Shown here: positions 4,465-57,708 of the stretch, one piece after another
How the letters are laid out: every line of letters starts with the position of its first letter
Numbering within the stretch: the first letter of the stretch is position 1
NCBI GenBank assembly: GCA_003213495.1
Contig: QCMW01000001.1
Location: 248,001 to 312,000 of the forward strand
Origin: SAR86 cluster bacterium AG-422-O05
Lineage (GTDB): Bacteria; Pseudomonadota; Gammaproteobacteria; Magnimaribacterales; D2472
Reading direction: 5' to 3'
DNA length: 64,000 nt
Translations under genes and position numbers: made by a program
Notes under the pieces: generated by a model
Databases searched by the model: none
Told to the model about the DNA's origin: nothing
What the model saw: the letters and a program-made list of their open reading frames with translations, nothing else

Positions 4465-4468
<4 letters not shown>

Positions 4469-6201
4469 GTTTTGCTTCCTTTTGCTAACCACATATCTTT
4501 TAAGCTTCCATTTGGTGCTACTAACATAGGATAGACATGCTCATTAGGATCTACATATATGTCAACAAATACTAGTTTATCTTTTATTGAAAATGCCTCT
4601 TCAATACCTTTCTTAAGATCTGAATTTTTCGTGATCTTAATTCCAACATGTCCATAAGACTCCACCAATTCCTTAAAGTCTGGTAATGAATCCTCATAAC
4701 TAATAGATGAATGGCGACCGTCATAATTCATATCCTGCCATTGCTTAACCATTCCCAAAGCAAGATTATTTATATTAAAAATCTTAATAGGCAACTTATA
4801 TTGTGAACATGTAGACAACTCCTGAATACACATTTGAATGCTACCCTCTCCAGTAATACAAATTACCTCCTCGTCTGGGTACGCTAGTTTGACACCCATT
4901 GCAGATGGTAAACCAAAGCCCATGGTTCCTAATCCACCAGAATTTATCCATTTTCTTGGCTCATCAAAATGATAATATTGAGCAGCAAACATTTGATGCT
5001 GACCTACATCAGAGGTAACAAAAGCCTTCCCTTTTGACTCTTGATATATGTGTTGAACTGCAGCCTGAGGAAGAATTGGATTTTCATCTGAATTATCTTT
5101 ATATAAGTTATGGTTTAATCCATGCTCAGATTTCCATTTCGAGATTTGTGCATGCCATTGATCAAATTTTGTAGTATCTAATTCAGATAATCTATCTTTA
5201 ATTAATTCATTTATTGCTTGCAGAGAATCTTTTACCTGGCCAAAGACAGCAATATCAGCTTCAATAATTTTTGAAACTGATGAGTGATCAACATCAAAAT
5301 GAACTATCTGAGCTCTTGGTGCAAATTTTTCAGGAGTATTGGTAATCCTGTCATCAAATCTTGCTCCAATTGCTAATATTAAATCAGCATTATGCATTGC
5401 CATATTTGCTTGATAAGTACCATGCATTCCAAGCATACCCAAAAATTTATCATCAGTTGCTGGATATACTCCAAGACCCATTAATGTATTAGTTACTGGA
5501 ACATTTATATAACTATTTAATTCTATTAGTTCCTTTGATGCATTGCTTGAAATTGTTCCGCCACCAGCATAAATCACTGGTTTTTTTGAGTTAAAAATTG
5601 CATCCACAACTCTTTCTATTTGAGTTGCTTCTGGTTTTACTGGAGGATTGTATGATCTTATATTTACTTCTTCTGGATATTCATAGTCAAATAGGTCGTC
5701 TGGATTTGTTAAGTCTTTTGGAATATCAATGACCACAGGTCCTTGCCTTCCAGATGTAGCAATATGAAATGCTTCTTTTACTATTTGAGGAATATTGCTT
5801 TGATGATCAACTGTAAAACTGTGCTTAACAATTGGTCTTGAAATACCAATCATATCAGTTTCTTGAAAAGCATCTGTTCCAATTAAATGACTTTGGACCT
5901 GGCCCGATATAACAACCATTGGGATAGAATCCATAAATGCAGTTGCTATTCCGGTTATAGCATTGGTTGCTCCTGGTCCTGATGTAACCATTACAACTCC
6001 AGGCTTACCAGTTGCTCTAGCATAACCATCAGCAGCATGTGTTGCACCTTGTTCATGTCTTACCAGAATATGCTGCATCTCACTTTGCTTGAAAATGGAA
6101 TCATAGATATGCAAGGCTGCTCCTCCAGGATATCCAAAAATATATTCAACTCCCTCATTTATAAGAGATTGAATTAACATATCGTTTCCAGCTAATTTCA
6201 T
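4465..6201 (-). CDS. ilvB: acetolactate synthase large (catalytic) subunit
   Basis: Thiamine-diphosphate and FAD enzyme that condenses pyruvate with pyruvate or 2-oxobutyrate, the first common step of branched-chain amino acid synthesis. The length of 578 aa is normal. Glu50 in RHEQGATHAADGYARATG is the catalytic ThDP-activating glutamate. The ThDP/metal motif near residue 450 reads GEGSIQM followed by NINN, with Glu where the textbook motif has Asp (GDG). The C-terminal GHVGIKI and EHVYPM blocks resemble the IlvI type. It heads the ilvBNC operon. Its ThDP cofactor links it to the thiamine-uptake operon at 54-57.6 kb. Confidence 0.96.
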
Positions 6202-53557: not shown

Positions 53558-54001
53558 ATGAATAATAATGACAATAAATACCTTGTTTTAAGGGGAAAAA
53601 ACAAAGATATATTCTTCATTCAGAAAAGATTATCTAAAAATTTGTCCAACATAATAGGTAAGGATTTTATTAAAAAGTCTTTAGAAACAAAAAATATAGA
53701 TATTGCTAGAAAAAAAAGAGATGAGATACTTGCAGAACTTGATTTATTATCAAAAAATGCAGCTTTTGAAGCAAATATCACTAATAATATAGTTAAATCG
53801 TCAGATTACACAGATTTAAGTGTGCTTGAAGTGAAAAATACTCAATTTGAAGGTTTTTCGGACAAAAATGAGGGTATAAATTCAAATTATATTAAATTAA
53901 ATAACTTTTCTTGGGATATGAAGGATCTAATTATGAAAATTGATAAATTAATACCATTTGCGATTTTGGTACTTACATTGCTTATTGCTTTTGTTGCTTA
54001 A
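53558..54001 (+). CDS. Orphan integrase-N-terminal-like domain with a membrane tail
   Basis: A 147-residue protein. Residues about 7-65 (KYLVLRGKNKDIFFIQKRLS, then FIKKSLETKNIDIARKKRDE) follow the pattern of the DUF6538-type N-terminal domain of tyrosine recombinases ('yl..Rg..yyfrrrvP..l...ig....kSL.T.d...Ar'). There is no core-binding or catalytic recombinase domain. The acidic middle ends in a hydrophobic helix LIPFAILVLTLLIAFVA at the very C-terminus, suggesting a tail-anchored membrane protein. It overlaps the convergent kinase gene by 20 bp. It may be a domesticated fragment; function unknown. Confidence 0.7.
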   Translation: MNNNDNKYLVLRGKNKDIFFIQKRLSKNLSNIIGKDFIKKSLETKNIDIARKKRDEILAELDLLSKNAAFEANITNNIVKSSDYTDLSVLEVKNTQFEGFSDKNEGINSNYIKLNNFSWDMKDLIMKIDKLIPFAILVLTLLIAFVA

Positions 54002-54809
54002 TTAATTTTTTTGCTTTTGCTACCATTTGATTTTGACTAAAAAAGTTTAAATCACTTTCCTTTATGAAATAAAACCAAATTACATCAGTATATGAATTCA
54101 ATAATTGCCAACTTTTAAGTATGTCAAGATTATTTTTACTACAATCTAGTCCGTATGATTCTAAAAAGACTTCAATATCTGTTTTTGAAAATTTATATGA
54201 GCTACATATTCTAGCAAGATCACAAAATCTATCATTAATAGATAGATAGTCATAATCAATAAACCTAACTTCATAATTATTAAAAAGTATATTTGAATTA
54301 TTTAGATCATTATGAGAAACAACATTATCAAAATTCTTGTCTCTTAATTTTGTGAAAAGCTTAATAACCTCTATAAGAATTTTATTATTTTTATTTTTCT
54401 TAATCTCCTTAATATATAAATTAATTTGTGAATCAAATGATTTTAAATTTTTATCAAGATCTAATGAATGTAATTTCTTTAGCTTTGAACCAGTCTTAAT
54501 TATTAATTCTTTATTCAAAGTTTTAAGTTCCTTGCCATTAAAATATTCGTAAACATATAAACTATTTTTATTGTCGCTGTAAATAATTTTTGGGAATAAA
54601 TTTTCTTTTACTATCTGACTAGAGATTCTTTGACAATAAAATTTATTTTCTAAATTCTTATTAATATTTTTTTTCAGTATTTTAAATATTGATTTTTTAT
54701 TATTTAAATATCCAAAATAGGTATAAGAAGTTTCTCCATTTCTTATTAATTTTAATTTACTAATTTTGTGATTAGTTTTTGAAAAAATTTCTGCAATATT
54801 TTTTTTCAT
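53982..54809 (-). CDS. Small-molecule kinase, probable thiamine kinase
   Basis: Kinase of the choline/aminoglycoside phosphotransferase fold, 275 aa. An N-lobe strand with KSIFKILKK precedes the catalytic loop VVSHNDLNNSNILFNN (near 165-180) and the metal-binding FIDYDY (near 187). From sequence alone it could act on choline, ethanolamine or another alcohol. Context favours thiamine: it ends an operon controlled by a TPP riboswitch, after a PnuC-type transporter. ThiK-like phosphorylation would trap imported thiamine. Very Lys/Asn-rich composition. Confidence 0.75.
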   Translation of the reverse strand: MKKNIAEIFSKTNHKISKLKLIRNGETSYTYFGYLNNKKSIFKILKKNINKNLENKFYCQRISSQIVKENLFPKIIYSDNKNSLYVYEYFNGKELKTLNKELIIKTGSKLKKLHSLDLDKNLKSFDSQINLYIKEIKKNKNNKILIEVIKLFTKLRDKNFDNVVSHNDLNNSNILFNNYEVRFIDYDYLSINDRFCDLARICSSYKFSKTDIEVFLESYGLDCSKNNLDILKSWQLLNSYTDVIWFYFIKESDLNFFSQNQMVAKAKKLIKQQKQ

Positions 54810-54862
54810 TATTAAAATTAACTATCTATAGCATCACTAAATAATTTTTGTGCTTTTATAAT

Positions 54863-54929
54863 TTTTTTCATCCAAGATCTATTAGAAAATATTTATTTCG
54901 TTAGCGTTTAATTTTTTCATCCAAGATCT
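54863..54929 (-). repeat. 18-bp direct repeat duplicating the pnuT 3' end
   Basis: AGATCTTGGATGAAAAAA (minus strand) occurs at 54912-54929, inside the pnuT coding end, and again at 54863-54880, just past its stop; the offset is 49 bp. The flanking dozen bases are partly similar (about 8 of 12). The second copy continues an open frame, RSWMKKIIKAQKLFSDAIDS then stop, ending 8 bp before the kinase start, which looks like an earlier C-terminus of the transporter. Confidence 0.8.
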
Positions 54930-55463
54930 GTAACCAAATATTATTATTATTAAATATATAAAGAAAAGTAATGACGTTAAATATAACTCTCTTGAGATAA
55001 ATAAGTAAATTGATATTGAATCTATTACAAACCAATATATCCAGTTTTCAATAATTTTTTTTGCAACCATATAGGTTGTAATAATTGCACCCCAAGTTGT
55101 AAAAGCATCCAAGAAAGGTAATGCAGCTTGTGTATATTTTTCTAAGAGAAATCCTGAAATTATGGCAAGCAGTGTTACGATTATTATTGCATAAACATGA
55201 TATTGCTTCTTCCAACTTGTAATCTTTAATTCTTGTTCCTCATTAATCTTATTACTCCATATATACCATCCATAAATAGCCATACAGATATAAAATATTT
55301 GCAAAAATGACTCCATAATTAATCCGGCTGTATACATAATATACATATAGAGTGCTGAGCTAAATAATGCCGCATACCAGCATTTTATGTCTTCTTTTGC
55401 TGCAAGAATTAAATATAAGATTGCACTAAAAACAGCAAAAATTTCAAGAAATAGAATGACCAT
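54882..55463 (-). CDS. pnuT: PnuC-family transporter, probable thiamine transporter PnuT
   Basis: Inner-membrane facilitator of 193 aa with about seven helices. SSALYMYIMYTAGLIMESFL and IFYICMAIYGWYIWSNK are PnuC-family blocks; ITTYMVAKKIIENWIYWFVID is the second repeat. PnuC relatives carry nicotinamide riboside, riboflavin or thiamine. The TPP riboswitch upstream of this operon points to thiamine or a precursor. It starts 6 bp after the TonB receptor stop. The C-terminal tail appears to have been altered by a local duplication. Confidence 0.88.
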   Translation of the reverse strand: MVILFLEIFAVFSAILYLILAAKEDIKCWYAALFSSALYMYIMYTAGLIMESFLQIFYICMAIYGWYIWSNKINEEQELKITSWKKQYHVYAIIIVTLLAIISGFLLEKYTQAALPFLDAFTTWGAIITTYMVAKKIIENWIYWFVIDSISIYLFISRELYLTSLLFFIYLIIIIFGYRSWMKKLNANEINIF

Positions 55464-55469
55464 TGAATT

Positions 55470-57566
55470 TTAAAAATTATATCTTAAAGAGAGGCCAATA
55501 TTTTTTGGATCTCCTTGTCTTCTATATAAATTATCTTCAAAATTAGGTGCCTCATTTCCAAAGAAAAATCCTCTTGTTGAGTAGTATTCATCAAATAAAT
55601 TTCTTACCCAAATATCTGCAGAGAATTTCTTATTTGAATAACCAATCAGCAGGTTAGCAAGTTGATAACTTTGAGATTTATTATTGTGTGAGTCTGAATA
55701 ATAAAAACTACTTTTTCCAGTTATATCCATCTTTAGATAAAAATTATTTTTTAAATTTAGATTAATTCCAACAGCGTATGTTCTTTCAGGCGCATGTGCT
55801 TGTGATCTATTTTCTAAGTCAGGTCTGGACTCCCAGTTTTTAATCTTTGTCTTTAATAAACCGACATTAGCATATAAATTTAAATTATCACTAACGAAGT
55901 AGTTTGAGCTCAGTTCAAGTCCAAAATTTTCTCCTTGGGCAGCATTTTGAGTTAAATACGAAAAAGTATTAGGATCGGTGGGATCAACTTGCTTAGAAAT
56001 TAAAACCTGTTGATCCTCTCTTTTAGAATAAAATAGTACTGCTGAATAATTAAAATTTGAATTAGTGCTATTGGAAGTTAAACCAATTTCGTAATTAGTT
56101 AAAAACTCAGGATCAAATATTAGCGACTCTCTTATTGAATTATCTGTCGCATCAAGACCTAAATTAAAACCACCCTGTTTGTATCCTCTTGCAATTGCAA
56201 AATAAATATTTGATTTATCTTTGTATTTAATTAGTGATAACTTTCCTCCATTCATATTATCTGACGGATTAAAAGACTCATTATTTGAATCATTATATTT
56301 TGAATTCCAATTTTCCCATCTCAATCCAAGTGCTAGCTTTAAGTTATCTGATATAAAGTAATCAATATTTCCAAATAATGAAAAATTATCAGCTTCATAG
56401 TTTCTTAAGATTATTGATTCACTGACATATGGGCCGAAAGGATCTGAAGGGTCGCCATAAACTCCATCATCTCTAGTCAAGTTTGTTTCCTCTAATTCAC
56501 TTAAATGAAAACCAAATATCCATTCAAATGGATTTTCTTCTGAAAAATTTATGTTGTTTGATAAAAACCGTATTTCTTGACTAAAAGTATCTCTTTTTCT
56601 AAATGTTTCAGAAAAGTAGTCATAAATATATGGAAAGTGAGAGTCAGGATTGCCCCAATCTGCATCATAACTAAAAACTACATCGGTTTTGGTAAAGCTT
56701 GTAAAACTTTGTAAATCAAAATGATTAAAATTCTTTAAAAGTTTTATTCCAACTGAATCTGTTTCTTGCGAATCCATTCCTGGACGATCTGATAAAGTAT
56801 TTAAACTTCCATCAATTGTCCATATATCTGCAGGATCATCCATATCAACTTTTGAAAGAAGAAAATTAACATCTGTCGTTTCACTAATATCCCAATTTAA
56901 TTTATATCTTATTGTCAGTTCATCTTTTTTTGATGTATCTGATTGATTTAAAAAAATATTTTTTCTAAATCCATCCGCATAATCAGTTCTAACTACTAAT
57001 CGATATTTAACTTTTTCATTTTTAGTTGGGCCACCGAATGCAATACCTAAATTTTGTGTACCATAATCTCCAATTGTTATTTCAGAAAGCCCTTCAAATT
57101 GTTCAGTAGGATCTTTGGTTTTTATATAAATTAAACCTGCTAGAGCATTTGCGCCTGTTCTTGATCCTTGAGGCCCTCGAAAGACTTCTACTTGTTCAAC
57201 GTCAAATAAAGTTGCAATTCCACCTTGACCTGAGTAGTCGATATCATCAATAAGAAATCCAACTGAAGAATTTGGTGTACCTTGATAACCAGATCTTTCT
57301 CCTATCCCACGAATTTGAAAATATCTTGCTCTTGAGTCTGATGCAGCATAATTTAGATTTGGTACAAGATATGAAAGTTGTTGAAAATGTTTTATAGCTT
57401 GTGAGTTAATTTTTTCCGATTGAATTATTAAAATACTTGAATCTTCTTCACTGACAGATTTTTCTCTATATTCACCTTTAACAATAATTTCTTCTATGTC
57501 TTGTGAAAAGATGAATAATGAAAAAAGTAATGGTATTAAGTATAGATTTTTTTTTCTGATGTACAT
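55470..57566 (-). CDS. TonB-dependent outer-membrane receptor, probable thiamine receptor
   Basis: Energised outer-membrane uptake barrel of 698 aa. The start at 57566 (MYIRKKNLYLIPLLFSLFIF) gives a signal peptide and lies one base past the riboswitch; longer frames would read through the aptamer. A TonB-box-like EEIIVKG (near residue 27) precedes the plug domain (YFQIRGIGERSGYQGTPNSS; VEVFRGPQGSRTGANALAG), and the barrel ends in GLSLRYNF. The length is normal. TPP-riboswitch control makes thiamine or a thiamine precursor the likely ligand. Confidence 0.93.
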   Translation of the reverse strand: MYIRKKNLYLIPLLFSLFIFSQDIEEIIVKGEYREKSVSEEDSSILIIQSEKINSQAIKHFQQLSYLVPNLNYAASDSRARYFQIRGIGERSGYQGTPNSSVGFLIDDIDYSGQGGIATLFDVEQVEVFRGPQGSRTGANALAGLIYIKTKDPTEQFEGLSEITIGDYGTQNLGIAFGGPTKNEKVKYRLVVRTDYADGFRKNIFLNQSDTSKKDELTIRYKLNWDISETTDVNFLLSKVDMDDPADIWTIDGSLNTLSDRPGMDSQETDSVGIKLLKNFNHFDLQSFTSFTKTDVVFSYDADWGNPDSHFPYIYDYFSETFRKRDTFSQEIRFLSNNINFSEENPFEWIFGFHLSELEETNLTRDDGVYGDPSDPFGPYVSESIILRNYEADNFSLFGNIDYFISDNLKLALGLRWENWNSKYNDSNNESFNPSDNMNGGKLSLIKYKDKSNIYFAIARGYKQGGFNLGLDATDNSIRESLIFDPEFLTNYEIGLTSNSTNSNFNYSAVLFYSKREDQQVLISKQVDPTDPNTFSYLTQNAAQGENFGLELSSNYFVSDNLNLYANVGLLKTKIKNWESRPDLENRSQAHAPERTYAVGINLNLKNNFYLKMDITGKSSFYYSDSHNNKSQSYQLANLLIGYSNKKFSADIWVRNLFDEYYSTRGFFFGNEAPNFEDNLYRRQGDPKNIGLSLRYNF

Positions 57567-57649
57567 ATGCAATTCCTCCGCAACTATTGTGTTGATCAGG
57601 TTCAAAGAGTTTCAAAAGATCTCAGGCAAATAAAGCCACCCCTTTGCAT
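57567..57649 (-). promoter_or_regulatory. TPP riboswitch (THI element)
   Basis: The minus strand carries the full thiamine pyrophosphate aptamer: GGGGTGGC, then CTGAGA, then TTTGAACCTGATC, then GCGGAGGAA. The ends close as P1, with TGCAA pairing to TTGCA directly before the start codon at 57566. The only ribosome site of the receptor gene, GGAGG, lies inside the aptamer's conserved 3' segment, eight bases from ATG. Binding of TPP should therefore hide it and repress translation of the TonB-pnuT-kinase operon. Upstream DNA (57650-57708) is AT-rich with a TATAAA-like -10. Confidence 0.96.
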
Positions 57650-57708
57650 TTAAATTATTTTATATAAATTTCTATTTTTTTAATATACAGTTTGTGAGTT
57701 TTAATATT

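Follow-up and report, generated by a model that had tools for sequence, protein, structure and literature searches.

We analysed a 64,000-nucleotide stretch of the genome of SAR86 cluster bacterium AG-422-O05 (genome G000; 1.28 Mb, 96.7% complete), called the window below (G000:C1:248001-312000). Between 57653 and 53982, its minus strand carries an operon in which a thiamine pyrophosphate (TPP) riboswitch is followed by genes for a TonB receptor, a PnuC-family transporter and an APH-fold kinase. The locus was compared across 60 genomes of the SAR86 order (G-numbers), including the families f1, f2, f3 and f4, and matches to Pfam, NCBIfam and Rfam models were judged against each model's own cut-off (for Rfam, the gathering score). 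The operon contains the following features:

57556..57653, minus strand: TPP riboswitch aptamer (RF00059; cmscan 56.7 bits vs gathering score 54.3)
57644..57648, minus strand: 5′ strand of helix P1, UGCAA (Rfam alignment)
57575..57579, minus strand: GGAGG in the conserved 3′ core of the aptamer, a likely ribosome-binding site (sequence and Rfam alignment)
57568..57572, minus strand: 3′ strand of P1, UUGCA, between GGAGG and the start codon (Rfam alignment, leader comparison)
55470..57566, minus strand: TonB-dependent outer-membrane receptor, 698 amino acids (aa), ATG start; putative thiamine receptor (Omr1/OMthi role), from Pfam Plug and barrel matches and its position after the riboswitch
54882..55463, minus strand: PnuC-family inner-membrane transporter, 193 aa; putative PnuT, from PF04973 and co-occurrence with the riboswitch
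53982..54809, minus strand: APH-fold, choline-kinase-like kinase, 275 aa; putative thiamine kinase making thiamine monophosphate (ThMP), from PF01636, a structure model and context

Riboswitch, receptor and leader

A preliminary description of this DNA had named a full TPP aptamer ahead of these three kinds of gene, separated by short gaps, and the model searches bear it out. The RF00059 match slightly exceeded its gathering score in a scan of the whole window (E 1.9e-8), and all three proteins scored above the Pfam cut-offs: the receptor with Plug (44.9 bits) and barrel (90.8 bits), the transporter with PF04973 (165.2 bits, cut-off 27.3) and the kinase with PF01636 (44.4 bits, cut-off 23.2). 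The gaps measure 6 bases (receptor to PnuC) and 72 bases (PnuC to kinase). The receptor likely starts at the ATG at 57566, which lies within the Rfam match, rather than at the TTG at 57605 of the mechanical open reading frame (ORF) list.

The riboswitch is present in 40 of the 60 genomes, one apiece, and exceeds the gathering score in 37 of them. Genes around it were read at 39 loci (38 fetched plus the window); in the 40th genome, G029, the riboswitch lies at a contig edge. At all 39 loci the receptor follows, cut by the contig end in G038 and in pieces in G032. Along the leader, the conserved 3′ core with GGAGG is followed by the 3′ strand of P1, a single U and the start codon, and in 12 of the 39 leaders P1 and the AUG overlap, as judged by eye. 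All five P1 pairs are kept in 38 leaders; one C-G pair has become U-A on both sides in five leaders, G032 is changed on one side only, and three pairs are broken in G051. No separate expression platform was seen, and the Rfam match extends into the first codons of the receptor. Folded as a single sequence, the leader did not outperform its shuffled versions (z 0.83; 154 of 200 did as well), so that the case for the riboswitch is built on the covariance-model match and on conservation.

Because GGAGG lies in the aptamer core and P1 adjoins or overlaps the start codon, the layout of the leader points to direct masking of the ribosome-binding site when TPP binds. Plentiful TPP would bind the aptamer and, through the GGAGG in the 3′ core and a P1 helix that ends at the start codon, block translation of the receptor, which would require no separate expression platform.

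Thiamine synthesis and the operon across the SAR86 order

Genome-wide profile searches in G000 gave no match to ThiC, ThiE, ThiG or TPK at E 0.001. They also covered ThiD, for which only a 21-bit partial match was obtained, and ThiL, found with 238 bits (cut-off 184) at G000:C1:638950-639792, about 333 kb from the operon; ThiN, TenA, ThiM and ThiS/F/H were left out. ThiD was judged by score rather than by its cut-off of 205 bits, since only one of the 60 genomes reaches the latter; the ThiE-bearing G036 and five f3 genomes score 132-169. Tnr3 forms TPP in one step, and PF04263, the model for TPK/Tnr3-type enzymes, matched none of the 60 genomes (control: 7 of 14 control genomes matched). The absence of thi biosynthesis genes from the window, as described earlier, agrees with these searches for ThiC, ThiE and ThiG, the window itself being not fully annotated gene by gene, and the genome check proposed with it thus returned ThiL but not thiC, thiE or thiG (ThiN left out). 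The acetolactate synthase named in the same place corresponds to a TPP enzyme of that type at 4465-6201, with three TPP_enzyme domains. Judged from its gene content, the organism seems unable to make vitamin B1. ThiL requires ThMP, which normally comes from ThiE. As ThiE was not found, a thiamine kinase is the gap to be filled; and since precursors cannot be joined without ThiE, intact thiamine is the likely cargo.

The riboswitch and the synthesis genes exclude each other across the order. None of the 40 riboswitch genomes has ThiC, and none has ThiG above cut-off; ThiC (10 of 60 genomes) and ThiG (13 of 60, 289-372 bits) occur solely among the 20 riboswitch-free genomes. The ThiE family is above cut-off in 14 genomes, namely the 13 with ThiG and the riboswitch genome G051, where what matches is a fragment of 51 positions interrupted by three stops; matches in G035 (65 bits) and G058 (55 bits) are weak and perhaps represent a paralogue. 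Sub-cut-off ThiE and ThiG matches (≤22 bits) in riboswitch genomes were not counted. Both states are found within each of f1, f2 and f4; in f3, ThiC and ThiG are present and the riboswitch absent in all eight genomes. As the genomes are related, the independent events number fewer than 60. Three f4 genomes (G041, G044, G059) have ThiE and ThiG without ThiC, riboswitch or PnuC and likely represent a third state, dependent on hydroxymethylpyrimidine (HMP).

Gene order at the ancestral thiE site, where labels other than thiE and thiD were given by eye, is consistent with operon-using lineages having lost synthesis. In all four ThiE genomes read there, thiE adjoins a hesB/anmK block, together with thiD and argC in G036 and G046 and between a small gene and hemL in G041 and G044. 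None of the seven riboswitch genomes read at this block (G000, G012, G034, G053, G039, G057, G051) has an intact thiE. A relic remains in G051 at the ancestral place, its pieces matching residues 154-192 of G036 ThiE and 6-51 of G036 ThiD. The two relics lie side by side at L216:5393-5642 (G051:C50), and argC is missing there too.

These results bear on whether the operon could instead salvage precursors (HMP, aminomethylpyrimidine (AmMP) or thiazole alcohol), with the kinase acting on HMP or the thiazole. Thiamine diphosphate (TDP) riboswitches also adjoin precursor transporters, such as thiV in Pelagibacterales, according to PMC10881298. However, with no ThiE match and a partial ThiD match in G000, precursors would hardly become ThMP, and the three f4 genomes in the putative HMP-dependent state also lack this riboswitch and PnuC. 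We rejected this explanation because no ThiE was found in G000, and we give it almost no credence. Of the earlier placement of all three genes in thiamine or precursor salvage, the thiamine part therefore stands (no ThiC, ThiE, ThiG or TPK, ThiL present), whereas HMP and AmMP are unlikely substrates, given no ThiE-family synthase (ThiN not searched).

The PnuC family was detected in 39 of the 40 riboswitch genomes (as two adjoining pieces in G032) vs none of the 20 others; the locus of the sole exception, G038, stops at a contig edge. This confinement to riboswitch genomes links the putative PnuT to thiamine regulation and salvage. The nearest NCBIfam model for the protein is the nicotinamide riboside transporter PnuC (87 bits, cut-off 42), which would fit a receptor and carrier for nicotinamide riboside, and transport of ThMP would fit operons of family f2 that have no kinase. 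Yet the family is restricted to riboswitch genomes in the order, and ThMP as cargo would make the kinase superfluous; we regard ThMP, TPP or nicotinamide riboside as improbable cargo.

The kinase and the proposed route

The kinase follows PnuC at 29 of the 39 loci, and three more loci end at a contig edge. Its residues H166, D168, N173 and D185, which we take to be catalytic, are invariant in the 27 sequences of kinase alignment A2, and dN/dS values of 0.15-0.42 in 13 of 13 hand-picked pairs indicate purifying selection. Within the genus, identity to the proteins of the window is 30-40% for kinases vs 72-85% for intact receptors. The AlphaFold model of the kinase (pLDDT 87.7) matches choline/ethanolamine kinases best. 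Foldseek placed 4r7b (LicA) first (E 3.5e-13); VIA-align ranked 3dxq at the top (Z 23.7, root-mean-square deviation (rmsd) 3.2, 262 aligned). LicA (Z 22.5-22.6, rmsd 3.3, 266 aligned) was level with further choline/ethanolamine kinases, 1.2 short of 3dxq, and aminoglycoside kinases scored 21.2 or less. Sequence comparison, too, puts LicA nearest among solved structures (90.9 bits with kinase alignment A1, about 20% identity). Choline and thiamine are alike in having a positively charged nitrogen and a hydroxyethyl group, so a change from one substrate to the other is plausible.

In two genomes, G017 (L060) and G028 (L062), the receptors are 95% identical and the kinases just 48%; to judge by these values, the kinase gene has been exchanged or is fast-evolving. 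The kinase frame is broken in G011 (L061), and receptor and PnuC are in pieces in G032 (L067), through assembly error or decay. A convergent 147-aa ORF (window 53558-54001) overlaps the 3′ end of the kinase gene; its DUF6538 match is below the cut-off, and relatives with 37-53% identity occupy the corresponding position at other loci within the genus.

A profile scan of named genomes with alignment A1 gave at least 263 relatives, of which the best 80 were kept. A PnuC relative was found by tblastn at 43 of these 80 loci (28 of the 43 in SAR86), and three ABC-transporter-like genes precede the kinase at four further loci (L160, L165, L183, L194); among the remaining 33, neighbours were read at L169, L173 and L178. 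Kinase relatives in Campylobacterota come after PnuC or ThiBPQ in TPP-riboswitch operons. A Sulfurovum locus (L166) has the order riboswitch, receptor, PnuC, kinase, and L160, L165 and L194 combine a TPP riboswitch, a receptor, three ABC-transporter genes and the kinase. A TPP riboswitch precedes the receptor at L196 as well, and at the PnuC-type locus L168 with 53.9 bits, marginally under the gathering score. L165, the sole ABC locus tested with profile models, matched ThiB (371.7 bits, cut-off 317), and ThiP and ThiQ were the best-matching names of the other two, yet under their cut-offs. L183 starts near a contig edge, and riboswitch and receptor are on another contig of its genome.

Taken together, we consider it very probable that the operon is under TPP control and serves to scavenge intact thiamine. 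In this scheme, the TonB receptor would take thiamine across the outer membrane, the PnuC-family protein, in the role of PnuT, would pass it through the inner membrane, the kinase would phosphorylate it to ThMP and thereby trap it, and the housekeeping ThiL would convert ThMP to TPP; substrates, direction of transport and kinase product are proposals here, as is the mechanism of the off-switch. The operon had been described as a complete scavenging route, which goes too far, because the step from ThMP to TPP needs the distant ThiL. With less assurance, though still on balance, we favour the wider view that the kinase belongs to a family of thiamine kinases distinct from ThiK, which descends from the choline-kinase lineage within the APH fold and whose partner, in two phyla or more, is either PnuT or ThiBPQ, and that the operon repeatedly replaced synthesis in SAR86, with a relic left in one lineage.

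The kinase could also be a passenger in a thiamine-importing operon, acting on choline, ethanolamine or another amino alcohol. Its likeness to LicA and other choline/ethanolamine kinases, its absence from seven f2 operons and its faster divergence than its neighbours would agree with this. Still, in different phyla its relatives come after either PnuC or ThiBPQ, thiamine carriers that are unrelated to each other, and several of these relatives are under TPP riboswitches; ThiE and TPK were not found in G000, where nothing else searched for would supply ThiL with ThMP; and of the three APH proteins of G000, the two outside the operon resemble, in length and score, kinds also present in ThiE-bearing genomes. 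A passenger role is hence unlikely.

Several observations weigh against thiamine scavenging as proposed. The receptor by itself carries no substrate signature, and its assignment draws on genomic context. The nearest solved relatives of the kinase are choline/ethanolamine kinases, and the modelled fold does not set the substrate. That the kinase is an orthologue of E. coli ThiK was ruled out, as the latter scores 14 bits (A1) and 33 bits (A2), below several other APH proteins. Receptor and PnuC stand without a kinase at seven of the 39 loci, which belong to f2 and include every f2 genome that has the riboswitch. No TPP riboswitch was found in the PnuC-kinase records L170, L179, L182, L192 and L208 (two Aliarcobacter, one alphaproteobacterium, two gammaproteobacteria). 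Seven incomplete genomes show neither the riboswitch nor the synthesis state (G006, G014, G016, G022, G024, G027, G033; 63-84% complete); G022 and G033 hold a kinase fragment, which makes assembly gaps likely. Finally, the available text of PMC5613172 reports that riboswitch-linked transport operons of Bacteroides thetaiotaomicron were unchanged by thiamine at the RNA level, and the direction of control in SAR86 is therefore left as a proposal.

Because f2 operons lack the kinase and TPK was not found, either another kinase performs the first phosphorylation in this family or the operon kinase is not essential. Eleven non-operon APH proteins were scored with A2, and the best, from G054 (L113, 71.8 bits), G039 (L110, 62.4 bits) and G048 (L120, 50.0 bits), may serve as leads only; G051 and G057 have no APH protein of that length class among the matches listed. 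In G039, the APH-fold kinase gene at L110:1488-2381 immediately follows genes labelled by eye as panB and panC, and it may be the missing f2 thiamine kinase. Five f2 genomes encode an APH protein of 334-341 aa at a distance of 10-15 kb from the operon; we discarded it as a candidate, because its neighbours resemble a cytochrome P450 cluster (by eye) and the same cluster is present in the ThiC-bearing G036.

Comparison with known systems

These results name a likely whole route from uptake to cofactor for SAR86, sort the SAR86 genomes into those predicted to need intact thiamine, those predicted to need a precursor and those predicted to need neither, and offer a directly testable substrate for a kinase group unnamed by the NCBIfam models used. 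Both omr1 and pnuT have been the subject of earlier comparative-genomics work.

E. coli ThiK (YcfN), which converts thiamine to ThMP ahead of ThiL, shares the APH fold with the operon kinase. The NCBIfam equivalog model thiK (TIGR02721) gave 43.4 bits with the kinase, far from its cut-off of 299.45, and in E. coli K-12 the neighbours of ThiK are non-thiamine genes. By its sequence scores, the operon kinase is more similar to the choline kinase LicA, which resembles it in fold and sequence, whereas the operon kinase sits in a TPP-riboswitch operon. The top NCBIfam score of the window kinase belongs to GntI, the kinase model of the guanitoxin pathway (NF041256), with 47.6 bits against a cut-off of 357; some of its relatives likewise score highest with GntI.

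The Bacteroidetes OMthi/Omr1-PnuT-Tnr3 system likewise joins a TPP riboswitch, a TonB receptor, a PnuT-type carrier and a thiamine-activating enzyme, in a single operon in most genomes, and PnuT is reported to carry thiamine in E. coli (PMC5613172, available text). Where the Bacteroidetes operon has Tnr3, the SAR86 operon has a choline-kinase-like kinase and a distant ThiL, in keeping with the lack of PF04263 matches in the order. B. thetaiotaomicron, as stated in the same text, retains thiamine biosynthesis, in contrast to G000 with no ThiC, ThiE or ThiG found.

For two SAR86 clusters, omr1 with a nearby TDP riboswitch has already been published (PMC10881298); this is the same kind of receptor and riboswitch, and thiK, PnuT and thiL are absent from the main text of that paper. 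A literature search, made mostly on listings and with thin coverage of subscription papers, turned up no published description of the kinase together with this operon in SAR86, nor of the arrangement seen in Campylobacterota. To these systems the present analysis adds the kinase, the association of that kinase with two thiamine carriers that are not related to each other, and the pattern of replacement across SAR86.

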